A stretch of DNA of 64,000 nucleotides from Buttiauxella gaviniae. GTDB taxonomy: Bacteria > Pseudomonadota > Gammaproteobacteria > Enterobacterales > Enterobacteriaceae. The notes under the pieces are model-generated. The model did not search any database. It was given only the letters and a program-made list of their open reading frames with translations, and was not told the origin of the DNA. Shown here piece by piece: positions 52,911 to 63,975 of the stretch. Both the position numbers and the translations under genes were made by a program. Position 1 is the stretch's first letter; each line of letters starts with the position of its first letter. The stretch is taken from contig NZ_JBFMVT010000002.1 in the NCBI RefSeq assembly GCF_040786275.1, forward strand, positions 3,534,001 to 3,598,000, written 5' to 3'.

Positions 52911-53077
52911 GCATTGAGTTCAAGTAGTCAAACAGGCATCCGCCAAAAAATCCAAGAGGCCGGGCTTCGTACCGGATAGATACTAGCTTTTAAAAAACGA
53001 CAGTCGTGTCGCCGAGGAAATTAAGATGGGGCAATTTTTTGCTTTTGCGCATGTATCCGCCGTTTGGGGGAATGACC

Positions 53078-54442
53078 ATGTCGCTTAACGTCACTGCAGG
53101 TACATCTTCACGTGTTGAACTTCGTAAAACCCTGACGCTGCTTCCAGTTGTCATGATGGGTCTGGCTTATATGCAGCCTATGACGTTGTTCGATACATTT
53201 GGCATTGTATCTGGCCTTACCGACGGACATGTCGCGACGGCTTACGCGTTTGCCCTTGTGGCAATTTTGTTCACCGCGTTAAGTTATGGAAAGCTGGTAC
53301 GCCGCTTCCCATCAGCGGGTTCCGCCTATACCTATGCTCAAAAATCAATCCACCCTGTGGTTGGTTTTATGGTGGGCTGGTCCTCTTTGCTTGATTATCT
53401 GTTTATGCCGATGATCAACATCCTGCTGGCAAAAATCTATTTTGAAGCCCTGGTGCCGTCTATCCCGTCGTGGATTTTCGTGGTGCTGCTGGTTGGCTTT
53501 ATGACCATCTCCAACCTGCGCGGCATCAAAACCGTGGCTAACTTCAACAGCCTGATTGTTGTGCTGCAAATGGCCGTCATGGTGGTTATCACCGGTCTGG
53601 TTATTTACGGTGTGGCAAACGGCGAAGGCGCGGGCACGTTGACCAGCACTAAACCGTTCTGGTCAGAACATGCGAACGTCGTGCCGATGATCACTGGGGC
53701 AACGATTCTGTGCTTCTCGTTCCTCGGGTTTGACGGCATTAGCTCGCTGTCTGAAGAAACTAAAGATGCAGGCCGCGTGATTCCAAAAGCGATTTTCCTG
53801 ACTGCCCTGATTGGCGGCGCGATCTTCGTTGTGGTGTCGTACTTCCTGCAACTGTACTTCCCGGACATCTCACGCTTTAAAGATCCGGATGCATCGCAGC
53901 CAGAAATCATGCTTTACGTGGCGGGCAAAGCCTTCCAGTTCGGCATCCTGATTTTCTCCTGCGTAACCGTTCTGGCTTCTGGCATGGCGGCACATGCGGG
54001 CGTTTCTCGCCTGATGTACGTGATGGGTCGTGATGGCGTATTCCCGGAGCGTTTCTTCGGTTACATCCATCCGAAATGGCGCACCCCGGCACTGAACGTT
54101 GTGCTGGTGGGTATCATTGCCCTGTTCGCGGTGAAATTTGACCTGGTGACAGCTACTGCGCTGATCAACTTCGGTGCTCTGGTTGCGTTTACCTTTGTAA
54201 ACCTGTCAGTGATTTCCCAGTTCTGGATTCGCGAAGGGCGCAACAAGTCCATTAAAGATCACATCAACTATCTGGTGCTGCCAATCTGTGGCGCGCTGAC
54301 GGTTGGTGCACTGTGGATTAACCTGGAAGAAAGCTCGATGATTCTGGGGCTGATTTGGGCGGCTATTGGCCTGACCTATCTGGCCTTTGTAACTCGTCGC
54401 TTCCGTAACCCGGTGCCACAGTTCAACGAAGATTTAGCGTAA
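53078..54442 (+). CDS. plaP: PlaP, low-affinity putrescine importer
   Basis: 454 aa from ATG 53078 (E. coli PlaP/YeeF 452). TTTGGGGGAATGACC supplies a ribosome binding site spaced better for 53078 than for ATG 53072; the frame from 53006 adds unconserved residues. It is an APC-family permease with 12 predicted membrane segments. Characteristic stretches are [40 protein letters not shown] and [20 protein letters not shown]. It acts in the inner membrane as a proton-coupled putrescine carrier. It is convergent with sbcB. Confidence 0.94.
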
Positions 54443-54454
54443 TAGCTAAAGACT

Positions 54455-54480
54455 AAAAAGGCCGCGCAAGCGGCCTTTTT
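54455..54480. terminator. Bidirectional terminator between plaP and sbcB
   Basis: AAAAAGGCCGC and GCGGCCTTTTT form an 11-bp perfect stem around GCAA between convergent genes, with A and T flanks suitable for both directions. Confidence 0.92.
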
Positions 54481-54486
54481 GCTATA

Positions 54487-55914
54487 TCACCCCACTAAAA
54501 ACTGCGCGTACTCAAACAACGCTTTCAGCAGCGCCGTCTTTTCTTTATCGCCTTCATGCAGGTTATATAACGCTTCCAGTTCTTGCGCGTAGGCCTGCAA
54601 CGCTTCCTGAGACAAGACCTCACGACGATGCTGCAACCAGCGCTGCTGTTCAGCTTCATCTAATGTGCCTGGGAAGTTACGAGCCCGGTAGTTAAACAGC
54701 AGTTTCTCGATACGTTTATCGACGAAAGTAATATCCAGCGCGGGCAGATTTTGCGGATCGGTTTGTAGCACAATCCGCATTGCGGCACGGTCAGCATCGC
54801 TAAAAAAACCGTTATAAAGCTGTGAATCGACATTATCGGAGGGCACAAAAGGCTCTGCTTGGGCAAAAATAGCCACGGCTTTTTCACGTACCGCCGGATT
54901 TTCTCGAAGTAATTTCAGATTTTCGAGGCAGCGTTTACGGTCAATGCCTAAGCGATCGGCATCCTCCGGGCGTAACGTATTTGCGACAGCAAGCACCGGG
55001 CATTTGTTCAGATGAACCAGTTTAATAGGCACTGCAGCCGCATCGCCCAACGCGGCTTTCGGGGTATATAACCTCTCGCGCAGCGCATCGGCATCGAGTT
55101 CCAGCAGGGGAGAAATGTCGCCCGCTAAATCGACCATAATCACCGCATTACGGTTATCCGGATGCCATGCCACAGGGGCAATCCAACTGGTGTTCCCGCG
55201 CATGGCGCCGAACATCCCGGAAACATGCACCAGCGGTTTCATCTGAGGAATATCTATCAGCGTGGTGAGTTTGTGCTTAGAGCGGTGGCTATAGAGATAC
55301 TCAAACAGGCGTGGCTGGCGCGTTTTGACCAACTGAGCCATGGCAATCGTGGCGTATACATCGGACATAGCGTCATGAGCATTGGCGTGTTCAATCCCGT
55401 TGGCTTTGGTCAAATGCTCGAGGCGGAAACTTGGCAGGCCATCGTCGTTTTCAGGCCAGACAATCCCTTCCGGGCGCAGGGCGTAGCAGGCCCGCATCAC
55501 ATCCAGCAGATCCCAGCGTGAGTTATCGTTCTGCCAGCTCCAGCCATACGGATCGTAGAAGTTACGATAGAAAATATTACGCGTCACTTCGTCATCGAAA
55601 CGCACATTGTTGTAACCCACCACGCAGGTTTTCGGCAGAGTAAAAATGCTATGAATGCGTTTTGCAAAATCGGCTTCATTGACACCGCGCGCCAATGCTT
55701 GCTGCGGCGTGATGCCGGTTATCATCACCGCTTCGGGCTGAGGGAGGTAATCATCCGCAGGTTTGCAGTAAAAAACTTCAGGCTCACCCATAACATTGAA
55801 TTGAGCGTCGGTACGAATAGCAGCAAATTGCGCAGGGCGGTCAAGCGACGGGCTTTTGCCGAAAGTCTCATAATCGTGGAAGAGGAAGGTAGGTTGTTGT
55901 TCTGAATTATTCAA
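54487..55914 (-). CDS. sbcB: Exonuclease I (SbcB)
   Basis: 475 aa, the normal length. The N-terminal DEDDh exonuclease domain has FLFHDYETFGKSPSLDRPAQF (Asp and Glu of Exo I), RWDLLDVMRACYALRPEG and ANAHDAMSDVYATIAMA. SH3-like and C-terminal helical regions follow. It degrades single-stranded DNA 3' to 5' in recombination and repair. The only start consistent with the N-terminus is TTG at 55914, because an in-frame TAA lies two codons upstream. The prophage remnant is inserted exactly here, so the start codon and upstream region are supplied by element DNA. Protein function should be intact but expression may differ. Confidence 0.95.
   Translation of the reverse strand: MNNSEQQPTFLFHDYETFGKSPSLDRPAQFAAIRTDAQFNVMGEPEVFYCKPADDYLPQPEAVMITGITPQQALARGVNEADFAKRIHSIFTLPKTCVVGYNNVRFDDEVTRNIFYRNFYDPYGWSWQNDNSRWDLLDVMRACYALRPEGIVWPENDDGLPSFRLEHLTKANGIEHANAHDAMSDVYATIAMAQLVKTRQPRLFEYLYSHRSKHKLTTLIDIPQMKPLVHVSGMFGAMRGNTSWIAPVAWHPDNRNAVIMVDLAGDISPLLELDADALRERLYTPKAALGDAAAVPIKLVHLNKCPVLAVANTLRPEDADRLGIDRKRCLENLKLLRENPAVREKAVAIFAQAEPFVPSDNVDSQLYNGFFSDADRAAMRIVLQTDPQNLPALDITFVDKRIEKLLFNYRARNFPGTLDEAEQQRWLQHRREVLSQEALQAYAQELEALYNLHEGDKEKTALLKALFEYAQFLVG
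55865..55913. repeat. Left attachment site (attL) within sbcB codons 1-17
   Basis: This 49-bp stretch matches 62494-62542 with only two mismatches (55876 and 55879, both synonymous third positions in sbcB). The perfect core is 34 bp, 55880-55913, lying in the sbcB 5' coding end. sbcB is a recorded integration site of lambdoid (including some Stx) phages. Confidence 0.9.
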
Positions 55915-56043
55915 TGTTTATTTCCGTCCAATTGTGTTATCTAACGTATTGTTATTAAACTGAAATATCACTAAATAACCTCTTTATACGTCAATCTAAG
56001 TTCCTAAATGTTGTTTACTGTCCACTTTAGTCCATGTGATATT

Positions 56044-56085
56044 GCGTACCAGAACGGTACCAAATCCACTTTCTGATGCGTACCA
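56044..56085. promoter_or_regulatory. GCGTACCA repeats upstream of the integrase
   Basis: GCGTACCA occurs at 56044-56051 and 56078-56085, with a GGTACCA half-copy at 56056-56062, all within 55 bp of the int start. The same octamer is at 62434-62441, with a related GTGTACCA at 62422-62429, beside attR. Repeats on both arms of att are what integrase arm-binding or Xis sites look like; this is inference. Confidence 0.5.
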
Positions 56086-56094
56086 AAAATTATT

Positions 56095-56946
56095 ATGGCT
56101 CTCAGTGACACTAAACTTCGCTCAATACATGGTAAACCATATTCCGGCCCGCAAGAAGTATCTGATGCTGAAGGGCTCAGTGTGCGCATATCTCCTAACG
56201 GAGTTATTCTGTTTCAGTACCGATACCGATGGGGAGCAAAGGCTCAAAGGTTGAGCATTGGCAGATACCCCGCAATTCAGTTAAAAGAGGCTCGCAGTAT
56301 CACGGCCGATTTGCGAATCCTTTATGACAAAGGGATAGACCCGCGCACACACTTTGAAAGGTCTGCGAATGAGTCAATGACTCTGGCTGATTGTCTGGAC
56401 TATTGGGAGGAGAACTGCGTCAAAGCAACGCTACGACCAAATACGGTTCAGCTATACCAGTCAACAGTTATTAAACATTTGCATGACTCATTTCCTGGAA
56501 GGCCCATTTGCTCTATTACTGTCAAGCAATGGGTTGACCTGTTTACTCAAGAGGAAAGAGCTAATAGCCGACGCGCAAAGCAGATGCTTACTCAATTGCG
56601 ATCTGCAATCAGTTGGTGCATGAGGCGTCAGGTTATTGATAATTGCTCAATTATGAGTATCCAGCCCAGAGACTTTGGATCAAGATCTGAGGTCGGAAAC
56701 CGGGTTATGACATACACAGAACTTGCTCAAGTGTGGTTAGCAATTGACAGAAGCAGAGCGGCAACATCAAATAAGCTGCTTCACGAGATGTTGATGCTTT
56801 GGGGGGCTAGGGTTTCTGAATTGAGACTTTCGGAAAGGAAAGAGTTTGATTTAACTGAAAAGGTTTGGACTGTTCTAAAAGAGCACAGCAAGGGCTACGA
56901 AGTCCATGCTGATAAGCTGTTCTGGCATATCAAGAAGCTTGGTTGA
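56095..56946 (+). pseudogene. int: Phage integrase, tyrosine recombinase, truncated at 3' end
   Basis: 283 codons remain of a family usually near 390-400. The N-terminal DUF4102-like domain is visible (MALSDTKLRSIHGKPYSGPQEVSDAEGLSVRISPNG; LSIGRYPAIQLKEAR), then the SAM-like core-binding domain (about 95-180). The first catalytic Arg lies in GARVSELRLSERKEFD near residue 237. The HxxR box and the nucleophilic Tyr are missing: the frame stops after WHIKKLG, where it runs into the end of the convergent AlpA gene. It is therefore catalytically dead, and the element should be locked in place unless helped in trans. Confidence 0.9.
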
Positions 56947-57124
56947 CTCCGCCTTTAATGATCCACTCGTTAACCGCTTCCCGGAGATAGGCTTTTGGCC
57001 TAGTCCTGATCGGCTTCGGGAAGTTATGCTGGTTCGTGTAGTTCCAGATGGTTTGGCGTGAAGAAATCCCGAGGACGTTCATCACTTCGCTTTCTTGAAT
57101 AAGTGGACTTGTTTCGCTAATCAT
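56930..57124 (-). CDS. AlpA/excisionase-like small DNA-binding protein
   Basis: 64 aa from ATG 57124 with CTAAGGAAAAATT as ribosome binding site. The sequence ESEVMNVLGISSRQTIWNYTNQHNFPKPIRTRPKAYLREAVNEWI fits the AlpA-type winged HTH: a helix-turn-helix, the FPKPI turn, and a W-hinge at the end. Such proteins act as excisionases or activators of int in P4-like and lambdoid elements. It overlaps the tail of int by 17 bp in the opposite direction, probably because the int 3' end was deleted. Confidence 0.8.
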   Translation of the reverse strand: MISETSPLIQESEVMNVLGISSRQTIWNYTNQHNFPKPIRTRPKAYLREAVNEWIIKGGVNQAS

Positions 57125-57133
57125 AATTTTTCC

Positions 57134-57376
57134 TTAGTTAAACCGAATTGTTGAACCCTTAAACCACCCACCGCAGACGACGCCTTTCACCCGTTTACCG
57201 CTCTGTCCTGTTGCGACAAACTCAGTGCGGTACACGTTATCATCGCTGCACCCTGTGAATGAGTAACCTTCAATTCTGATGTTTGTGAATCCGCTATTCG
57301 CCAATACGTTTGTTGCTTCAGTTGGGTCTGTGCAACCGGTTATCGCCAGCACTGCTATCAGTAAAATTCGCTTCAA
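57134..57376 (-). CDS. Small phage lipoprotein
   Basis: 80 aa starting at TTG 57376, with GGAGGAAACCAA giving a strong ribosome binding site. The N-terminus MKRILLIAVLAITGCTD is a lipoprotein signal with lipobox AITG-C at Cys15. A short domain follows with paired cysteines (FTGCSDDNVYRTEF; VKGVVCGGWFKGSTIRF). Proteins of this pattern are common in enterobacterial lambdoid prophages and lack a known function. It lies 9 bp upstream of the AlpA-like gene in the same direction. Confidence 0.75.
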   Translation of the reverse strand: MKRILLIAVLAITGCTDPTEATNVLANSGFTNIRIEGYSFTGCSDDNVYRTEFVATGQSGKRVKGVVCGGWFKGSTIRFN

Positions 57377-57530
57377 TTGGTTTCCTCCAGGCGTAAAAAA
57401 AACCGCACTCGGCGGTCATATATAGTCTTTAATCTGAAAATCTAAGCTGATTAGCTCACTGATAAACTGTGATGTGGCTCGTGGTTTACATGTGAGCTAT
57501 TTTGTGTGTGGAAATGGTTTTGTGGGTTAT

Positions 57531-57971
57531 TTATGACACTTCTGGATTTGGTGCGGATGCCGAATCACGACAATATGATTCATCGGAAACATACGACAGG
57601 GTCCCGTAACCGCTCAAGCTGTATCCTATTAGTTGCGCCAACTGCATGCGGTCGTCGTCGGAAAAATCATCTAGCGCCATCTCATTCAATCCATAGCCAT
57701 GCGCCGTTGAGAAATCCAGTAACTTTCTGACGATCTGGTTTTCCTTGAAACGCAGCGTGCCGTGCGAATCAAAAACTATTACCTGCATTGGCAACTTGTA
57801 AGGCTCGCTTACAGGTTCCAACTGTTCAGGATTACTTGACGGTTGGAGTTGTGGTGCTGCGTATAGCAGGGTGCCACATGGTAGGTTGGCGATGAGCAGT
57901 GCGCTGTAAGTTTTACCTGAACCACTTGGCCCGGTAAGTGCCAGCCGTAAAGGAGGTACATTAAGGCTCAA
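57531..57971 (-). other. Chimeric phage ORF: P-loop fragment fused to an unrelated early-gene tail
   Basis: 146 codons from TTG 57971. Residues 7-29 (PPLRLALTGPSGSGKTYSALLIA) are the N-terminus of a phage AAA ATPase with Walker A GPSGSGKT. The next residues, NLPCGTLLYAAPQLQPS, look like the C-terminal end of an Ea22-type phage protein. The remainder (VIVFDSHGTLRFKENQIVRKLLDFSTAHGYGLNEMALDD...IGYSLSGYGTLSYVSDESY) is typical of another small phage early protein. No Walker B follows, so it cannot be a working ATPase. It most likely marks a deletion junction. Whether it is translated is unknown; the P-loop piece also abuts the 5'-less tailspike. Confidence 0.6.
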
Positions 57972-59075
57972 TGGATTTTACGATATTAAGTATGGCGCTA
58001 TCGTTCCTCCACGTGTCACGCTGGAGGGGGGCGGTATGGATTCCTGTGGATTAATTAAAACAGGTAACGATATTAAAACCGTTCCGGATCGCATGTGGCA
58101 GGGAGTGCCGCACAGCTTCTCAAAAGACTTTATCGCCGCTGTAGATATGGACAGTGACACGGCGGGCAATCTTGACGGGAATCAGACGCGCAGTACGCGC
58201 ATTATAGTTCTTAGCCTTTTGTGTACAGCGACAATGCCTAGTGAATTCGGGGTATATAGCGCTATTAGTTACGATGTCAGGCTTGAAGGTTTATATATAC
58301 ACAACGTACAAACCGGATATCGCACTTCTGATAGCTGGCTGCAAACCTGGTAAATATTACAATTAAGGATGTTGCGACAGGGGTAAAAATTGATGTAGGC
58401 GGTACCACGTATAATATTAGTAATATGTATGTCCGCAATGTTTCAGATACTGCTTATGACCTAAAAAACATTACATATAGCTCATTAACGTGCTGTGCGG
58501 CTGACTTTGTAAATGGTACGGCATATAGATTAAAAGACTGTACGGGTGTTTCACTTTCTGGCTGTGGATGCGAGAGCGTTACAGGCACACAATTTGATAT
58601 CCAAGGATCGAGGGTATTCTTAGATAGTTTTAGGTCTGTAAATCCAAAGCGTGGAGAGAAGGAGTCGTTAATTATTTTATCATCTGCGGTTGATGTAAAT
58701 TGTTCTTATTTACCTGATTACTCAGATGGGAGTTCTCCGAAATATACTAAGCTTGATGGTGCTATTGTTAACTCAAATAATTCAATTTTCCCGGATCATT
58801 CAAATGATCGTATTGCATGGGGAGTAGTGCAATCAATCATAAATATATCTGATGAAAAAGGAGCATATTCTGTAGCTGGGAATTCCACTTATGTTGTGCT
58901 TGGACGGGTTGAAGGTGGAGTGATAACTGTACTTTCTCAAAATCCGCCAACCGGTGATGCAAACACCTACCCAGCAGGGACCAGGTGGGAATTGTTATAC
59001 CCATCCGTAACCGGCCCTTACAAGTGGATATGGCTAGCTGACAACACATGGCATGTTACTGGTAGCATTCTTTAA
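57958..59075 (+). pseudogene. Phage tailspike (beta-helix), 5'-truncated and frameshifted
   Basis: A reading frame is open from at least 57940 without a proper start. It reads GTLRLNGFYDIKYGAIVPPRVTLEGGGMDSCGLIKTGND, typical of the start of a right-handed beta-helix receptor-binding domain, and continues SFSKDFIAAVDMDSDTAGNLDGNQTRSTRI to SDSWLQT near 58345. There a one-base deletion shifts the frame; the next frame continues LVNITIKDVATGVKIDVGGTTYNISNMYVRNVSD to the end at 59075 (ADNTWHVTGSIL). The head-binding N-terminal domain is missing. Tailspikes bind and often cleave host polysaccharide. The fragment ends 72 bp before the first acyltransferase. Confidence 0.8.
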
Positions 59076-59147
59076 TATATTTTGTTTGCACTTGCTAAAA
59101 TATTGTTTAGCATTTCATCTATAAAAATTCTGGTGGCGAAAATAAGA

Positions 59148-60122
59148 ATGGATGAAAAAGCAGTCAACATACGAGCATTAGCAGCAATCATGGTGGTTAT
59201 ACTGCACATAAACTCGCAGTATTTCCACGACATTTCTAGTTACTGGCCTGTTTTTGCGGTAATTGGCGCAGCAATGAGGCCGTGCGTACCACTTTTCTTG
59301 ATGCTATCTGGATACCTTCTGGTAGGGAAGCCGGTCGGTGTAATAACTTTCATGAAAAAAAGGGTTTCAAGATTGATTCCACCTATTTTATTTTGGGGTG
59401 GTTTTTATGTGGTCTTTATTTCTATAGTAGGAGATGCGCCGATATCAATAATTTCATTTATCAGAATACTTATTGAACCACCGATGTTCCACTTATGGTA
59501 CTTATACTTAATTGTAGGCGTTTATCTAACAGTTCCTATTTTGTCAGGATGGTATGTGTCCTCATCTTTATCTGACAAGATTTTTTATGTGTCTCTATGG
59601 CTTACTTGTTTGATTCTTGGTGGCTCATACATTGGTGTTGATGTTATAAATAGATACTATCTTGGTCAGTTCTCTACTTACGTGTTTTATCTTCTCGCCG
59701 GGGCTTTGATTAGAGACATCAATACTAGGTTTGAATTTAATAAAAACATATGTCTTATTTTTTTCGCAGTATTTACTGGTGCGATTTCAGCTTTGACTAT
59801 TGTTAATTCCGCAAAAACAGGGATTCCTTCAGAGGAGTATTATGAATACACAAGCCCACTGGTTGCAATGCAATCGCTTTCTATTTTTTATTACCTCTTG
59901 TCATTTGATAAATCTAGCTCAGTGACCAGTGTTATATCAAGTAGATCGCTAGGGATTTATTGTGTTCACGTATCTGTGATTTTATGTATATTTCCATGGG
60001 TTAAATTATATATATCCATGCCTTTTGCGTCTTATGTTTTTTCATTTACGTTTACCGTCATTGCATCGTTATCAATATGCTCCGTGATAGGTAGGATAAA
60101 ATATATAAGAAGGGTGGTTTGA
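59148..60122 (+). CDS. Acyltransferase-3 family membrane protein (O-antigen acetylase-like)
   Basis: 324 aa from ATG 59148 (MDEKAVNIRALAAIMVVILHINSQ). TTG 59082 would add a hydrophobic extension not typical of the family. It has about ten predicted membrane segments. Family-3 marks are NIRALAAIMVVILHI with the catalytic-type His in the first membrane segment, PLFLMLSGYLLVGK, FMKKRVSRLIPPILFWG (Arg motif), and FHLWYLYLIVGVYLTVPIL. Its placement beside a tailspike and att matches phage serotype-conversion O-acetyltransferases such as Oac, so it may acetylate the host O-antigen. Intact and AT-rich. Confidence 0.85.
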   Translation: MDEKAVNIRALAAIMVVILHINSQYFHDISSYWPVFAVIGAAMRPCVPLFLMLSGYLLVGKPVGVITFMKKRVSRLIPPILFWGGFYVVFISIVGDAPISIISFIRILIEPPMFHLWYLYLIVGVYLTVPILSGWYVSSSLSDKIFYVSLWLTCLILGGSYIGVDVINRYYLGQFSTYVFYLLAGALIRDINTRFEFNKNICLIFFAVFTGAISALTIVNSAKTGIPSEEYYEYTSPLVAMQSLSIFYYLLSFDKSSSVTSVISSRSLGIYCVHVSVILCIFPWVKLYISMPFASYVFSFTFTVIASLSICSVIGRIKYIRRVV

Positions 60123-60130
60123 TTAGTTAT

Positions 60131-60207
60131 CATGGATACTTAACGACGCCAGGAGTGGAGAGTCCGACGATGTGCAGGTGATGTGATGGGGCATGGATGT
60201 GACAAAA
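60131..60207 (+). repeat. 77-bp repeat, copy 1 (3' end of an orphan phage gene)
   Basis: Matches 62287-62363 with four mismatches. In both copies the reading frame WILNDA.SGESDDV.VM then stop is kept, so it is the 3' end of the same unidentified coding sequence plus about 18 bp. Here it follows the first acyltransferase by 8 bp. Confidence 0.85.
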
Positions 60208-60209
60208 AA

Positions 60210-60260
60210 TTAGCGCGAACTCTCATGAACTGTGACCTTTGTTCTCAAAGTTCGCGCTAA
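60210..60260. repeat. 12-bp perfect inverted repeat upstream of the second tailspike fragment
   Basis: TTAGCGCGAACT (60210-60221) and AGTTCGCGCTAA (60249-60260) are exact complements separated by 27 bp. It lies right after the 77-bp repeat and before the second tailspike fragment. It could be an operator, a mobile-element end or a stem; no T run follows. Confidence 0.6.
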
Positions 60261-60315
60261 GCATCTGTCTAAATGCGTGATGTTTCGTGTACTTCCATGT
60301 TCTACAAAATCAGAA

Positions 60316-60979
60316 CCTCATATTAGTAATATGTATGTCCGCAATGTTTCAAATACTGCATATGACCTTAAAAATATCACATATAGTTCATTTACGTGTT
60401 GTGCGGCTGACTTTGTAAATGGTACGGCATATAGATTAAAAGACTGTACGGGTGTTTCACTTTCTGGCTGTGGGTGTGAGAGTGTTACAGGTAAGATTAT
60501 TGAACTCAATGGAAGCAGGGTCTCCGTTTCGGCCTTTAGGGGATTAAATATTCTTGATGGAGGGGGGAGGCTATAGACTTACAATCTTGCTTTGTTTCTT
60601 TTGATGCATGTCACTTCTCAGATTTCACTGGCAGTGTGGCCAGCAAGTATGTTTACTTAAATGATGCGACATTAACAAGGAATGGCACAGTCATGCCAGA
60701 TTATACATCTAACAGAATAAGATGGGGAGAGGCACAAAGCAGGGTCATAAAGATTGATTTTGACGGTGTTTATTGCGTTACTGGCAACAATTCCTGGACA
60801 GCCCTTTGCAGATTAGAGTCAGGGTATATGACGGTTTTATCAGTTAGCACTCCAACCGGTGATACTTCGGTATTCCCCCTGGAACAAAATGGGAGTTATT
60901 GAATCAATCCACCCCGGGACCATGGAAGTGGACGTACATTTCAGGTCAATGGAAGGTTTCTGCAACAACAGCGGCATAA
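60316..60979 (+). pseudogene. Second tailspike C-terminal fragment, with two frameshifts
   Basis: 60320-60491 repeats 58414-58585 of the first tailspike at about 90 percent identity (ISNMYVRNVSNTAYDLKNITYSS...GCGCESVTG). It then diverges into a different C-terminus. The frame is broken in a G6 tract near 60565 and continues IDLQSCFVSFDACHFSDFTGSVASKYVYLND. It breaks again in a short C run near 60876, and continues to the end (PGPWKWTYISGQWKVSATTAA). No N-terminal part or start exists. The C-terminal pattern GDT...FP..WELL...W also matches the end of the first copy. Confidence 0.8.
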
Positions 60980-60994
60980 ATTAATTATAAACAG

Positions 60995-61010
60995 TGGGGC
61001 TCGCGCCCCA
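60995..61010. terminator. Hairpin between tailspike fragment and second acyltransferase
   Basis: TGGGGC and GCCCCA form a 6-bp stem around TCGC between convergent reading frames, with A/T-rich flanks. A modest bidirectional terminator. Confidence 0.6.
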
Positions 61011-61025
61011 TTAATAATGATTAAT

Positions 61026-62068
61026 CTATGAAATTTTTGAGGAAATAATCTTACCAATTCTCATGGATGGCTTTTCTATTAAAATAAAAGATAAATACCC
61101 AAAAATAACACTCAGGATAATACAGAGCGCCTGATTCAAATGCAATGAAAGGCTTGGAAGGTAATAATAAACAATCTGCTCAATCATAAACCCCCATAGA
61201 TAAACGCCATAGGATATGTCATGTTTTACTTTTATTCTGCGTATTATTTTTAGTGATGACAAATACAGGGCCGAGGTGCATATGAAAAAATAAAAAAGCA
61301 GGTGCTTTATGATTTCACTAGAGATGAAGAAATATAATATTGCGATTCCGGCTGGAATGTGAAGTGAAACTAATTTTTTTCTTTATGAATTGCGAATAAT
61401 GCACCGAGAGCAAAGCATGGTGCCATCAAATATACATCTGCATTGTCAGAGTTTATAAATAAAAACCTATTCCAACCAGTTATTGGTGAGATGATTACAA
61501 TTAAACATATTAATGATGATATGTATTTGTTTTTATTTTCTGTTAACAGAAAGCATCCCAATAAAACAGCATATGATGCTACCTCATATGGTATTGTCCA
61601 AAGTGACCCATTTACTGATCCTTTGTATATATTGGCATCAAATACACCTGGTAGCATAAAAGCCATATCAAAAACTGAGCTATTTTTAATGTAATCGACT
61701 GTTAGTGGATTTGAAAAATAACTGGCAATATCTAAACTTGTTACGATAGGCCCAACCACAATAGCCGTAAATAAAATTACAAATATAAATGCTGGATATA
61801 TTCTAAAAAAACGTGAAACTAAAAAATGAATTGTACTTTTATTTGAAATTAAACTGTTTGTAACTAACAAGCCACTTATAAAGAAAAATATTTTTACTGC
61901 AACTGAGCCTGTATAGGTAAATGGCAGTAATGACTGTAGTGGCTCCGGAGCTCCATTGGCGTTAGATAGATAGTAACTATGGGCAAATATTACCATAATA
62001 GCGCAAAAAATCCGCAATAAGTCAAAGTTATTATTGTCCCTTTTGAGAACATCAGAAACAGATTTCAT
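61026..62068 (-). pseudogene. Second acyltransferase-3 (OafA-like), frameshifted in a homopolymer
   Basis: The first frame runs from ATG 62068 for 232 codons (MKSVSDVLKRDNNNFDLLRIFCAIMVIFAHSYYLSNANG...; SVAVKIFFFISGLLVTNSL; VSRFFRIYPAFIFV; GSLWTIPYEVASYAVLL) and stops in an A7 tract (T7 at 61374-61380). Adding one A would restore the frame into KLVSLHIPAGIAILYFFIS...SSLKIIRRIKVKHDISYGVYLWGFMIEQ...LSFILIEKPSMRIG. That would end at 61026 for about 347 aa with about ten membrane segments, the usual family size. It is unlike the first acyltransferase. It may be a pseudogene or a slippage-switched gene. Confidence 0.8.
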
Positions 62069-62153
62069 AGCACACCAAAGAATAAAGATAAGGAGAAATT
62101 ATGGCCATATGATATATGGAGCAGAAAAAAAATGATAGAAAACCTTGCGTTGA

Positions 62154-62342
62154 TATAAACACGATGAGTTTCGCGTTCTGCGGTACAAGACCCTGCCGAG
62201 TGTGGATCTGGAAGACATCAACAGGCCAGAGCAGAAATTCAAAATGGATGAATATTTTGAAAATGACGGCGTGTTCGGCGTTGTGACATGGATACTTAAC
62301 GACGCCTGTAGTGGAGAGTCCGACGATGTGCCGGTGATGTGA
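62154..62342 (+). other. Orphan 3' fragment of an unidentified phage gene
   Basis: Open for 62 codons after a TGA at 62151, without a convincing start (first ATG at 62232). It reads YKHDEFRVLRYKTLPSVDLED and continues FKMDEYFENDGVFGVVTWILNDACSGESDDVPVM before the stop. The last 19 codons are repeated after the first acyltransferase, with the frame conserved. I do not recognise the family. It is the cut end of a gene that lay next to att in the ancestral phage. Confidence 0.5.
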
Positions 62343-62363
62343 TGGGGCATGGATGGGACAAAA
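62287..62363 (+). repeat. 77-bp repeat, copy 2
   Basis: Second copy of the sequence at 60131-60207 (four mismatches). Here it is the end of the longer orphan frame starting at 62154 and lies 131 bp before attR. Confidence 0.85.
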
Positions 62364-62421
62364 GTTTTCTTCTATATAGTAGAAGAGAGCGAGATGTTAA
62401 TTGAGTGATGAAATCGAGGCG

Positions 62422-62441
62422 GTGTACCAAATTGCGTACCA
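62422..62441. promoter_or_regulatory. GTACCA repeats beside attR
   Basis: GTGTACCA (62422-62429) and GCGTACCA (62434-62441) match the repeats upstream of int at 56044-56085. They are candidate integrase arm or Xis sites on the right arm. Confidence 0.45.
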
Positions 62442-62493
62442 AACTAACCAATTCGTTTCATGAAGTCAGTCGTAGCAAGGGTTTTCTGGCACT

Positions 62494-62542
62494 GTCTCAT
62501 AATCATGAAAGAGGAAGGTAGGTTGTTGTTCTGAATTATTCA
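62494..62542. repeat. Right attachment site (attR)
   Basis: Matches attL at 55865-55913 (34-bp perfect core at 62509-62542). On the minus strand it carries a GTG-initiated fragment of the sbcB start, VNNSEQQPTFLFHDYETVPEN, ending at a TGA after 25 codons. Weaker similarity to the attL flank continues rightward to about 62608. Confidence 0.9.
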
Positions 62543-62808
62543 CGATTTATACCCGCCCTTGAGTGCTGTTTAACATGTTGTTATTAAACTGAAATCCCAC
62601 TAAAACTCTCTCCATGAATCAATCGACATTTTATGATGGTGCCTATGCTCATGGTAAACCATTAGCAGGCTGCCTGCACCATAAGGGAAACCCTGCAAAA
62701 GGTGGAGGTAAATTTCTCTGTTCATATCTTTTTGCAATTTAATTGCGAAAAAAGTCGAAAACTCCAGTAAAAGAGGCGGCTGAATTTATTGTCACCGAGG
62801 GTATATCG
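62543..62808. other. Region between attR and dacD
   Basis: 266 bp with no supportable gene. Its left 65 bp resemble the sequence upstream of the resident sbcB start. A 13-bp match, CATGGTAAACCAT at 62650-62662, equals part of the integrase 5' coding region at 56128-56140, which hints at further phage-derived DNA. A dacD promoter should lie in the right part but was not identified. Confidence 0.5.
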
Positions 62809-63975
62809 TTGAAGATCCGTCTGTTTGCTGTCTGTTCACTGTTGTCACTTTCTGCTCACTCCGCTTTTGCCGACGATTCCTTTGTTAATGCGCCACCACC
62901 GCCACAAATCCAGGCGGGGTCGTGGGTTTTGATGGATTACACCACCGGGCAAGTGCTGACTGCGCAGAATGAACACGTGCGACGCAACCCGGCGAGTCTT
63001 ACCAAATTGATGACCGGCTATGTGGTCGATCGCGCTATTGATAGCGGGCGCATCACGCCGGACGATATGGTCACGGTCGGGAAAGATGCCTGGGCGAAAG
63101 GCAATCCAGTGTTCGACGGCTCTTCGCTGATGTTTCTCAAAGCGGGAGACAGATTAACGGTGCGTGATTTAAGCCGCGGTTTGATTGTTGATTCAGGGAA
63201 CGATGCCTGTGTCGCGCTGGCCGATTACGTCGCTGGCGGGCAGCCGCAATTTGTGGCGATGATGAACAAATATGTGAAGCAACTCCGTCTGCGCGATACC
63301 CACTTTGAAACCGTTCACGGCCTTGATGCGCCTGGCCAGCATAGTTCGGCCTACGATCTTGCGGTGTTATCCCGCGCAATTATCCATGGCGAACCCGATT
63401 TTTATCATATGTACAGCGAGCGTAGCCTCACCTGGAACGGCATCACTCAGCAGAACCGTAATGGTCTGCTTTGGGATAAAAATCTCAACGTGGACGGCCT
63501 GAAAACAGGCCACACCGCCACTGCGGGTTTTAACATTATCGCTTCCAGCGTTGATGGCGATCGCCGCCTGATTGCCGTCGTGATGGGCGGGGAAAGCCCT
63601 AAGGGGCGTGAAGAGCAGGCGCGTAAATTACTGCACTGGGGCCAGGATAATTTCGATACCTTGCAGGTTCTGCATAAAGGCAGAAAAATTGGCAGCGAAA
63701 CTGTCTGGTATGGCGATAAAAAAAGCGTAGACGTAGGCACAAATCAGGATGTCTATCTGGCGCTGCCAAAAGCCGAAGTGCCTAACATTAAAGCTAAATA
63801 TGTTCTCGAAAGCCAGGAGATGGAAGCGCCGGTTGCCGCAAACCAACATGTTGGCGAAATCGAGCTATTTGATCGCGACAAACTTATTGCGCACTGGCCC
63901 CTGGTGACGCTGGCAGATGTCAAAAAAGGTAGCGCCTGGTCCCGATTCAAGGATTACCTGAGCCACAAGCTGTAA
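62809..63975 (+). CDS. dacD: DacD, D-alanyl-D-alanine carboxypeptidase (PBP6b)
   Basis: 388 aa from TTG 62809, equal to E. coli DacD, preceded by CCGAGGG as ribosome binding site. The frame extends to 62743 but that adds a charged stretch ahead of the signal peptide. The signal peptide is KIRLFAVCSLLSLSAHSAFA. The active-site triad motifs are SLTK (about residue 62), SGN in VDSGNDACVALAD (about 129) and KTG in VDGLKTGHTATAGF (about 232). A C-terminal beta-domain and an amphipathic anchor (WSRFKDYLSHKL) follow. It trims pentapeptide side chains of peptidoglycan at the outer face of the inner membrane. Confidence 0.95.
   Translation: MKIRLFAVCSLLSLSAHSAFADDSFVNAPPPPQIQAGSWVLMDYTTGQVLTAQNEHVRRNPASLTKLMTGYVVDRAIDSGRITPDDMVTVGKDAWAKGNPVFDGSSLMFLKAGDRLTVRDLSRGLIVDSGNDACVALADYVAGGQPQFVAMMNKYVKQLRLRDTHFETVHGLDAPGQHSSAYDLAVLSRAIIHGEPDFYHMYSERSLTWNGITQQNRNGLLWDKNLNVDGLKTGHTATAGFNIIASSVDGDRRLIAVVMGGESPKGREEQARKLLHWGQDNFDTLQVLHKGRKIGSETVWYGDKKSVDVGTNQDVYLALPKAEVPNIKAKYVLESQEMEAPVAANQHVGEIELFDRDKLIAHWPLVTLADVKKGSAWSRFKDYLSHKL

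Follow-up and report, generated by a model that had tools for sequence, protein, structure and literature searches.

Conversion genes at prophage ends, and the mobility of such genes, are already known. In the phages P22, epsilon34 and Sf6, a tailspike with a variable C-terminal part is combined with O-antigen-modifying genes near the attachment site (att), and gtrABC clusters are described as highly mobile and often located in degraded prophages (PMC2629481, PMC8787464). According to a review, Sf6 brings about an acetylation that blocks further Sf6 (PMC9558356). Sf101, a Lederbergvirus of Shigella flexneri (KJ832078), is described as integrating in the 5′ end of sbcB, with the order tailspike, acyltransferase, att, integrase (PMC4159516). 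Here, we analyzed a 64,000-nucleotide stretch of the Buttiauxella gaviniae chromosome (hereafter the window), in which a decayed prophage, about 6.6 kb long, adjoins sbcB, in the region between sbcB and dacD. Like P22, epsilon34 and Sf6, it combines tailspikes of differing C-terminal part with putative O-antigen-modifying genes near att, and it shares with Sf101 the integration site, the gene order, and a related integrase and AlpA-like gene (71% at the DNA level). The element is the remnant of an sbcB prophage that has two right ends, each with tailspike sequence and an acyltransferase gene, separated by an att arm of the fliE type. We estimate a probability of roughly two-thirds (0.68) that these are the right-end conversion blocks of two temperate phages, preserved in one decayed sbcB prophage.

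Results

An earlier note on this DNA had described two units with a common left and a common right border, and both repeat pairs are indeed present. The left border is a 172-bp repeat on the plus strand (58414-58585 and 60320-60491), with 93.6% identity between the copies (E 1e-72) and an ungapped extension to 202 nt at 88%. The right border, also on the plus strand, is a 77-bp repeat (60131-60207 and 62287-62363) with 94.8% identity (73/77, E 7e-31). Both pairs are far beyond chance. Outside both borders, the two units have only matches of 12-17 bp in common.

Both tailspikes are incomplete. Tailspike 1 (57950..59075, plus strand) is 5′-truncated, has one frame break near 58350 and ends in a C-terminus that we call type C1; compared with its relatives, its center shows 77-85% amino acid identity and its C-terminus 67%. 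The remnant of tailspike 2 (60320..60980, plus strand) is likewise 5′-truncated, with frame breaks at about 60576 and 60900 and a C-terminus of type C2. One piece of it (TS2b) is 63% identical at the amino acid level to the tailspike of locus L003 and 36% to that of locus L008. Beyond the shared segment, the two C-termini do differ, as had been noted; with 35% amino acid identity over 104 residues (tblastx), they are therefore divergent homologues. The P22 Head_binding domain (PF09008) is absent from the tailspike pieces of the window, which begin mid-gene. It is present in the relatives L003, L004 and L138 and absent from the L008 tailspike. By sequence match, the L003 tailspike corresponds to P22-like head-binding and tailspike entries among solved structures.

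The 112 bp between the two units (60208..60319) represent the right att arm of phages integrated at fliE and end at the tailspike junction. This stretch is identical at 105/112 positions to genome G002 and at 104/112 to G009, both Buttiauxella with elements at the fliE 3′ end. In G001, G002, G009, G225 and G105, the arm leads into the fliE-end core CATATGATGAAYATGCAGG or close variants of it, the similarity of the arm being lower in G001, G225 and G105 than in G002 and G009. The sequence CATATGATGAAYATGCAGG is the 3′ end of fliE: it is seen in G005, and in G009 and G002 it connects to the fliE gene, while in G225 and G105 the core alone was read and the fliE gene was not confirmed beside it. 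In G009, fliE and the arm lie about 48 kb apart, with an integrase next to fliE. At two other border-bearing sites (G004 and G007:C17), the similarity ends at 60216-60219. The arm of the window extends as far as CTCATAT and passes directly into tailspike sequence, placing the join at the left margin of the att core. The fliE gene of the source genome itself has no such arm. The presence of a fliE-site att arm between the blocks, inside an sbcB prophage, implies two different phages, in agreement with the origin proposed earlier. Since the arm follows the first copy of the right border, block 1 seems to derive from a phage whose integration site was other than that of the sbcB resident. The literature matches listed do not mention fliE as a phage integration site.

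We also considered TGGGRCA repeats as integrase arm sites. Two copies occur in the end of unit 2 and in each att flank of G009, one in the end of unit 1 and one in the E. coli remnant L006, and the whole window contains 7. The motif is missing from the HK140 attP stretch, from either end of the sbcB site in G007 and from 55860-56110 of the window. It therefore offers, at best, a lead for fliE-type phages.

The relatives support the proposal that a tailspike C-terminus and its conversion cassette move as a block. In the tailspikes of L008 and L003, the central segments are 99.2% identical and the C-termini 44.9%. The L008 cassette carries an acyltransferase like the first of the window (plus strand), followed by lysis-type genes as read from the open reading frames (ORFs), and the L003 cassette carries one like the second (minus strand). 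At the DNA level, 29-30 of every 30 positions agree over L008 685-1194, then 20/30, and mostly fewer thereafter. This sharp breakpoint at L008 1194 maps to about position 58455 of the window, which is 41 bp into the left border, and similarity resumes past the cassettes (39 bp at 85%). A third C-terminal type, C3, precedes DUF6056-gtrB-gtrA in the E. coli prophages L004, L005 and L142, which adjoin a tRNA-Arg-type integrase and are closely related strains of one prophage. The same combination occurs in L138, with the C-terminus 88% and DUF6056 94% identical to L004 and a UmuD-like gene at the end. Type C2 accompanies an acyltransferase of the second kind in L003, L009, L010 and L011. C-terminal type and cassette type agree in every examined locus of the tailspike family, a small sample of three C-terminal types on two backbones each, which leaves out the second places in two E. 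coli records. The relatives thus lend the block proposal some support; the independent cases are few, and the parts in the window are mostly broken. In L138 (2347-7722), the order is a P22-type tailspike, DUF6056, GtrB, GtrA and a UmuD-like gene, with DUF6056 in place of a serotype-specific gtrC.

Both genes between the borders belong to the acyltransferase-3 family (Acyl_transf_3, PF01757) and lie in opposite orientation, as first described. Acyltransferase 1 (59148-60122, plus strand) is open and encodes 324 residues (E 3.5e-37, profile positions 7-324 of 326). It has the R-X10-H motif at residues 9-20 and RXXR at 72-75, two motifs (R/K-X10-H and RXXR) named essential in acyltransferase-3 relatives in the review cited above (PMC9558356), and fits the V-x-x-F-F-x-S-G motif only loosely. 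A simple hydropathy scan gives eight hydrophobic segments; ten transmembrane helices are a feature of the family. The protein is 59% identical to the L008 gene product and 31% identical to Oac of phiV10, and no sequence match to a solved structure was found for it. Acyltransferase 2 (61026-62068, minus strand) had been read as a single gene. Its 1043 bases are no multiple of 3 and read as two ORFs (61370-62068 and 61026-61262), so it is not one open gene. The first piece matches PF01757 with E 1e-25, and the two pieces are 65% and 62% identical to the L003 gene at the amino acid level. The frame break lies near a T run on the plus strand (61370-61385). Calling the two enzymes unrelated was too strong, given their common Pfam family, even though blastp finds no similarity between them at E 1e-3. 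In 500-bp steps, the acyltransferase stretches (59000-62000) are A+T-rich, with a G+C content of 0.31-0.39, compared to about 0.49-0.55 in the host genes at 53000-55500.

By analogy, the encoded acyltransferases probably alter the sugar coat of the cell. Two working cassettes, as the idea of alternative blocks might suggest, are not what the window holds. Acyltransferase 1 is open, but the second acyltransferase, the integrase, the NTPase-like gene and both copies of the tailspike and of umuD are broken. The remains of the tailspikes and of acyltransferase 2, about 2.8 kb in all, contain four frame breaks, from which we estimate that a 1-kb gene would have a chance of about a quarter of being unbroken. 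We therefore do not claim the intactness of acyltransferase 1 as a sign of selection.

The 77-bp right border turned out to be something other than a cassette-specific repeat. It consists of the last codons of a UmuD-like frame (..WILNDA..GESDDV.VM*) and about 20 bp of att-side phage DNA. The second copy belongs to a UmuD-like 3′ fragment (62159..62342, plus strand; PHROG UmuD-like, E 9e-8) with 41-47% amino acid identity to phage UmuD-like proteins among the matches listed. The window copies are only 3′ fragments; a full-length relative in L039 has the S24 domain (PF00717, E 3e-9). In HK140, the UmuD-like gene overlaps the annotated attP next to the related integrase. In four E. coli prophages, the S24 gene stands at the prophage end, adjoining ydfJ (two), malI or ybhB/bioA. 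In G007 (sbcB) and G009 (fliE), only the last umuD codons precede the att side, as in unit 1. Read from translation, the E. coli remnant L006 keeps a UmuD-like end at its att side, and Sf101 has an unannotated one, ..IINDARYGEFDDYPLR*, before the att core. The umuD end and the att-side DNA are probably retained because integration requires that DNA. A profile search of the genome contigs with the UmuD alignment returned only three loci, in Buttiauxella. Directly past the umuD end of unit 1, a perfect inverted repeat (TTAGCGCGAACT / AGTTCGCGCTAA) occupies 60216-60255, and comparable GCGC hairpins are seen past the umuD end at other att sites.

The right border also flanks conversion genes elsewhere, with varying cargo; had the borders never done so, the cassette model of the earlier note would have failed. 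Acyltransferase or Gtr genes near a border were judged by local hidden Markov models built from the proteins of the present analysis. Right-border-like places occur in 7/12 Buttiauxella genomes, the source genome (G000) included, and outside the source genome 6 of 10 places have acyltransferase or gtr genes nearby (L039, L040, L042, L043, L046, L048). Across the family, the search found 41 such places in 37/392 genomes. Thirty-five of them lie outside Buttiauxella, and 9 of the 20 examined there have acyltransferase or gtr genes (L113, L114, L117, L118, L120-L123, L126). Among 5426 E. coli genomes, 8 match the right border, and one of the four examined carries gtrABC. In total, such genes are seen at 16/34 border places and none at 18/34, a raw count without a random-locus baseline. 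No phage or E. coli genome matches 60125-60345 over at least 80% of its length.

Stacked units are found at other loci as well. At the fliE site of G075, from another genus (L146, 4069-16100), an integrase, Gtr genes, UmuD, an att core, an acyltransferase and a second UmuD-like start follow one another, and the 69-nt att repeats are identical. L014 (1681-5221) contains the start of a tail gene twice (233-nt repeat, 94%) with a different acyltransferase beside each copy. In L021 (207-5913), two different acyltransferase-3 genes on opposite strands lie between one tailspike and a UmuD-like gene, and L120 carries gtrABC plus an acyltransferase. Stacking is therefore not unique to the window. A stacked pair of two origins is not named in those parts of the literature that were surveyed, which does not prove its absence.

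The borders of the prophage itself are a 111-nt direct repeat at 83%, with attL at 55865..55975 and attR at 62494-62604. The flanking genes sbcB (54487-55914, minus strand) and dacD (62743-63975, plus strand) were named from the E. coli annotation under similar DNA. Variants of the sbcB att core lie at 55869-55881 in attL and at 62498-62510 in attR, each with 2 mismatches to the published 13-bp core CGTAATCGTGAAA of Sf101 and 2851. A degenerate core pattern, composed only after both sites were known, has no further match in the window (0.07 expected by chance), and the attL side aligns with the attP region of HK140. The sbcB-type integrase (56095..56946, plus strand) is truncated to 283 residues, compared to 392 in HK140; it retains the Pfam arm-binding and SAM-like domains only, with no match to the catalytic domain. 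Its amino acid identity to the HK140 integrase is 69%, and the DNA is 71% identical to HK140, Sf101 and others. An AlpA-like excisionase or regulator gene follows (56930..57124, minus strand; PHROG 66, E 6e-8), with a Pfam AlpA score just below the cutoff and 70% amino acid identity to the HK140 gene. A P-loop NTPase-like fragment (57531..57971, minus strand), with a weak PHROG match and 62 bp at 89% to a RecA-like gene of an Erwinia phage, passes into the tailspike near 57950. The element lacks a complete set of virion and replication genes. With only 6.6 kb left and the NTPase-like fragment fused to mid-tailspike sequence, the element is thus a remnant and not a phage.

The window contains no tRNA. 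An RNA element was rejected as an explanation, as no Rfam family reaches the gathering threshold in 55000-63000. Promoter-like sites in 58500-62700 are about as frequent as in shuffled sequence (17 vs 15.8), and terminator-like sites number 5 vs 2.5. In the sister species G007, the sbcB site (L043, 8559-14000) holds an integrase fragment, three gtr genes, an umuD end, attR and dacD; the outer borders are those of the window and the cargo is different. The sbcB site of E. coli 100416 (L006, 8001-13947) has an integrase fragment, IS1, an acyltransferase, an S24/UmuD fragment and dacD.

Discussion

We propose that a resident Sf101-like phage at sbcB would have contributed the right end tailspike (C2), acyltransferase 2, umuD-like end and att arm, and that a second, fliE-type phage would have contributed tailspike (C1), acyltransferase 1, umuD end and fliE-type att arm. 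The second phage may have joined into the tailspike gene of the resident, which would explain why the arm abuts tailspike sequence. Prophages are reported to integrate into prophages (PMC8112680, PMC10111431). Subsequent deletions would have eliminated the bulk of both genomes, so that the two right-end blocks now lie head to tail. An integrase acting on a secondary site and illegitimate recombination are about equally likely to have made the join. A site-specific insertion is possible: over 21 bp, the tailspike site agrees with the arm and core at 14 positions, a level reached by 10 of about 128,000 window positions.

Several observations weigh against this explanation. The other core variant gives only 13/21 (55 positions), and the core half alone gives 11/20 (750 positions) or, with the other variant, 10/20 (2280). 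The 21-bp match includes the ATAT common to both sides of the join. In the 77-bp border, the window copies agree with each other at 73/77 positions, and each agrees with G002 at only 71/77. No fliE-type integrase was found in the source genome, in a search made without a positive control. The left-hand junction of the second phage is lost, and only the junction at 60319/60320 survives. Independent relatives are few: besides the source genome, the tailspike family occurs in 0/392 genomes of the family, and the comparison of C-termini and cassettes does not include the neighbors of four Salmonella phage records (40% relative).

Two sbcB phages of the same type could instead have stood in tandem, and a deletion would then have fused the first phage's right end to the tailspike of its neighbor. 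Right ends in tandem that differ in their conversion gene do exist: at the fliE site of G075 an att core separates a Gtr-UmuD end from an acyltransferase and a second UmuD start. The 95% identity between the two 77-bp copies also speaks for a tandem. However, the DNA past copy 1 is a fliE-type arm, unlike the sbcB-type sequence past copy 2, and a core-pattern scan of the window finds no sbcB core between the units, which makes a tandem rather unlikely. It is also quite unlikely that a single phage had captured two consecutive conversion blocks one after the other and carried them natively before it integrated and decayed. The two acyltransferases of L021, the L014 repeat with its acyltransferase at each copy and the combination of gtrABC and acyltransferase in L120 provide precedents for such an arrangement. 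Yet an att arm of foreign specificity and an umuD end would not be expected amid the late region of a working phage, and the searches made found no phage with both blocks.

An artifact of assembly, such as a repeat that was collapsed or misjoined, or of base calling, with homopolymer errors causing the frame breaks, is very improbable. One frame break in acyltransferase 2 does lie near a run of identical bases, but the genome is in 2 contigs with 100% completeness, and base-calling errors cannot make truncations and fusions. The direct order of the flanking repeats would also suit a cassette that was duplicated within the prophage and whose copies then diverged. This origin is in effect refuted by the differing cargo: beyond the borders only matches of 12-17 bp remain, and each block has a nearer relative in another phage.

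Under the origin from two phages, each block may be an exchangeable end module, with the conserved tailspike stretch as its left boundary and the umuD 3′ end plus att-side DNA as its right one. A swap of the module would change the tailspike C-terminus and the conversion gene together. The arm in the window may have been retained for the same reason as other att-side DNA. The enzyme would acetylate the surface polysaccharide of the lysogen and blunt re-adsorption, by analogy with Sf6, Sf101 and P22. More tentatively, and we consider it doubtful, the segment from mid-tailspike to att arm could be a general exchange module across integration sites: recombination at a favored point in the tailspike gene and in the umuD-end and att-arm DNA would swap the C-terminus and the enzyme in one step, and an integrase-driven insertion of a fliE-type phage into the resident tailspike would have left both versions here.

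If the C-terminus and the enzyme are exchanged as a block, the enzyme of a prophage would hint at the polysaccharide recognized by its spike, and orphan acyltransferases could be paired with spikes. The locus also suggests that blocks of different phages can accumulate at a single site, with one open conversion gene remaining in the host.

Comparison with Known Systems

The resident element resembles Sf101 in three respects: att sequence of the sbcB 5′ end on both sides, a related (here truncated) integrase, and a tailspike with a conversion gene by att. In the published description, Sf101 is intact and has one cassette, and its OacB is shown to acetylate the O-antigen (PMC4159516). The window, in contrast, has two blocks, a foreign att arm and decay. 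Compared with the P22-like phages, its tailspikes lack the head-binding part and its two cassettes are stacked. Acyltransferase 1 shares PF01757 and the R/K-X10-H and RXXR motifs with Oac and OafA/B, as these are described in PMC9558356. The window genes, by contrast, encode putative acetyltransferases, and copy 2 is broken.

An incoming element inside a resident prophage is also described for prophages within prophages and for satellites embedded in a helper (PMC8112680, PMC10111431), and in one reported case (PMC10111431) the insertion lies inside late genes, as in the window. The elements in these reports have proven att sites and two junctions, whereas the window offers one junction and a partial site match. 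What the present locus adds to the known systems is a left breakpoint inside the tailspike gene, a right border formed by the umuD end and the att arm, and a stacked pair of two origins.

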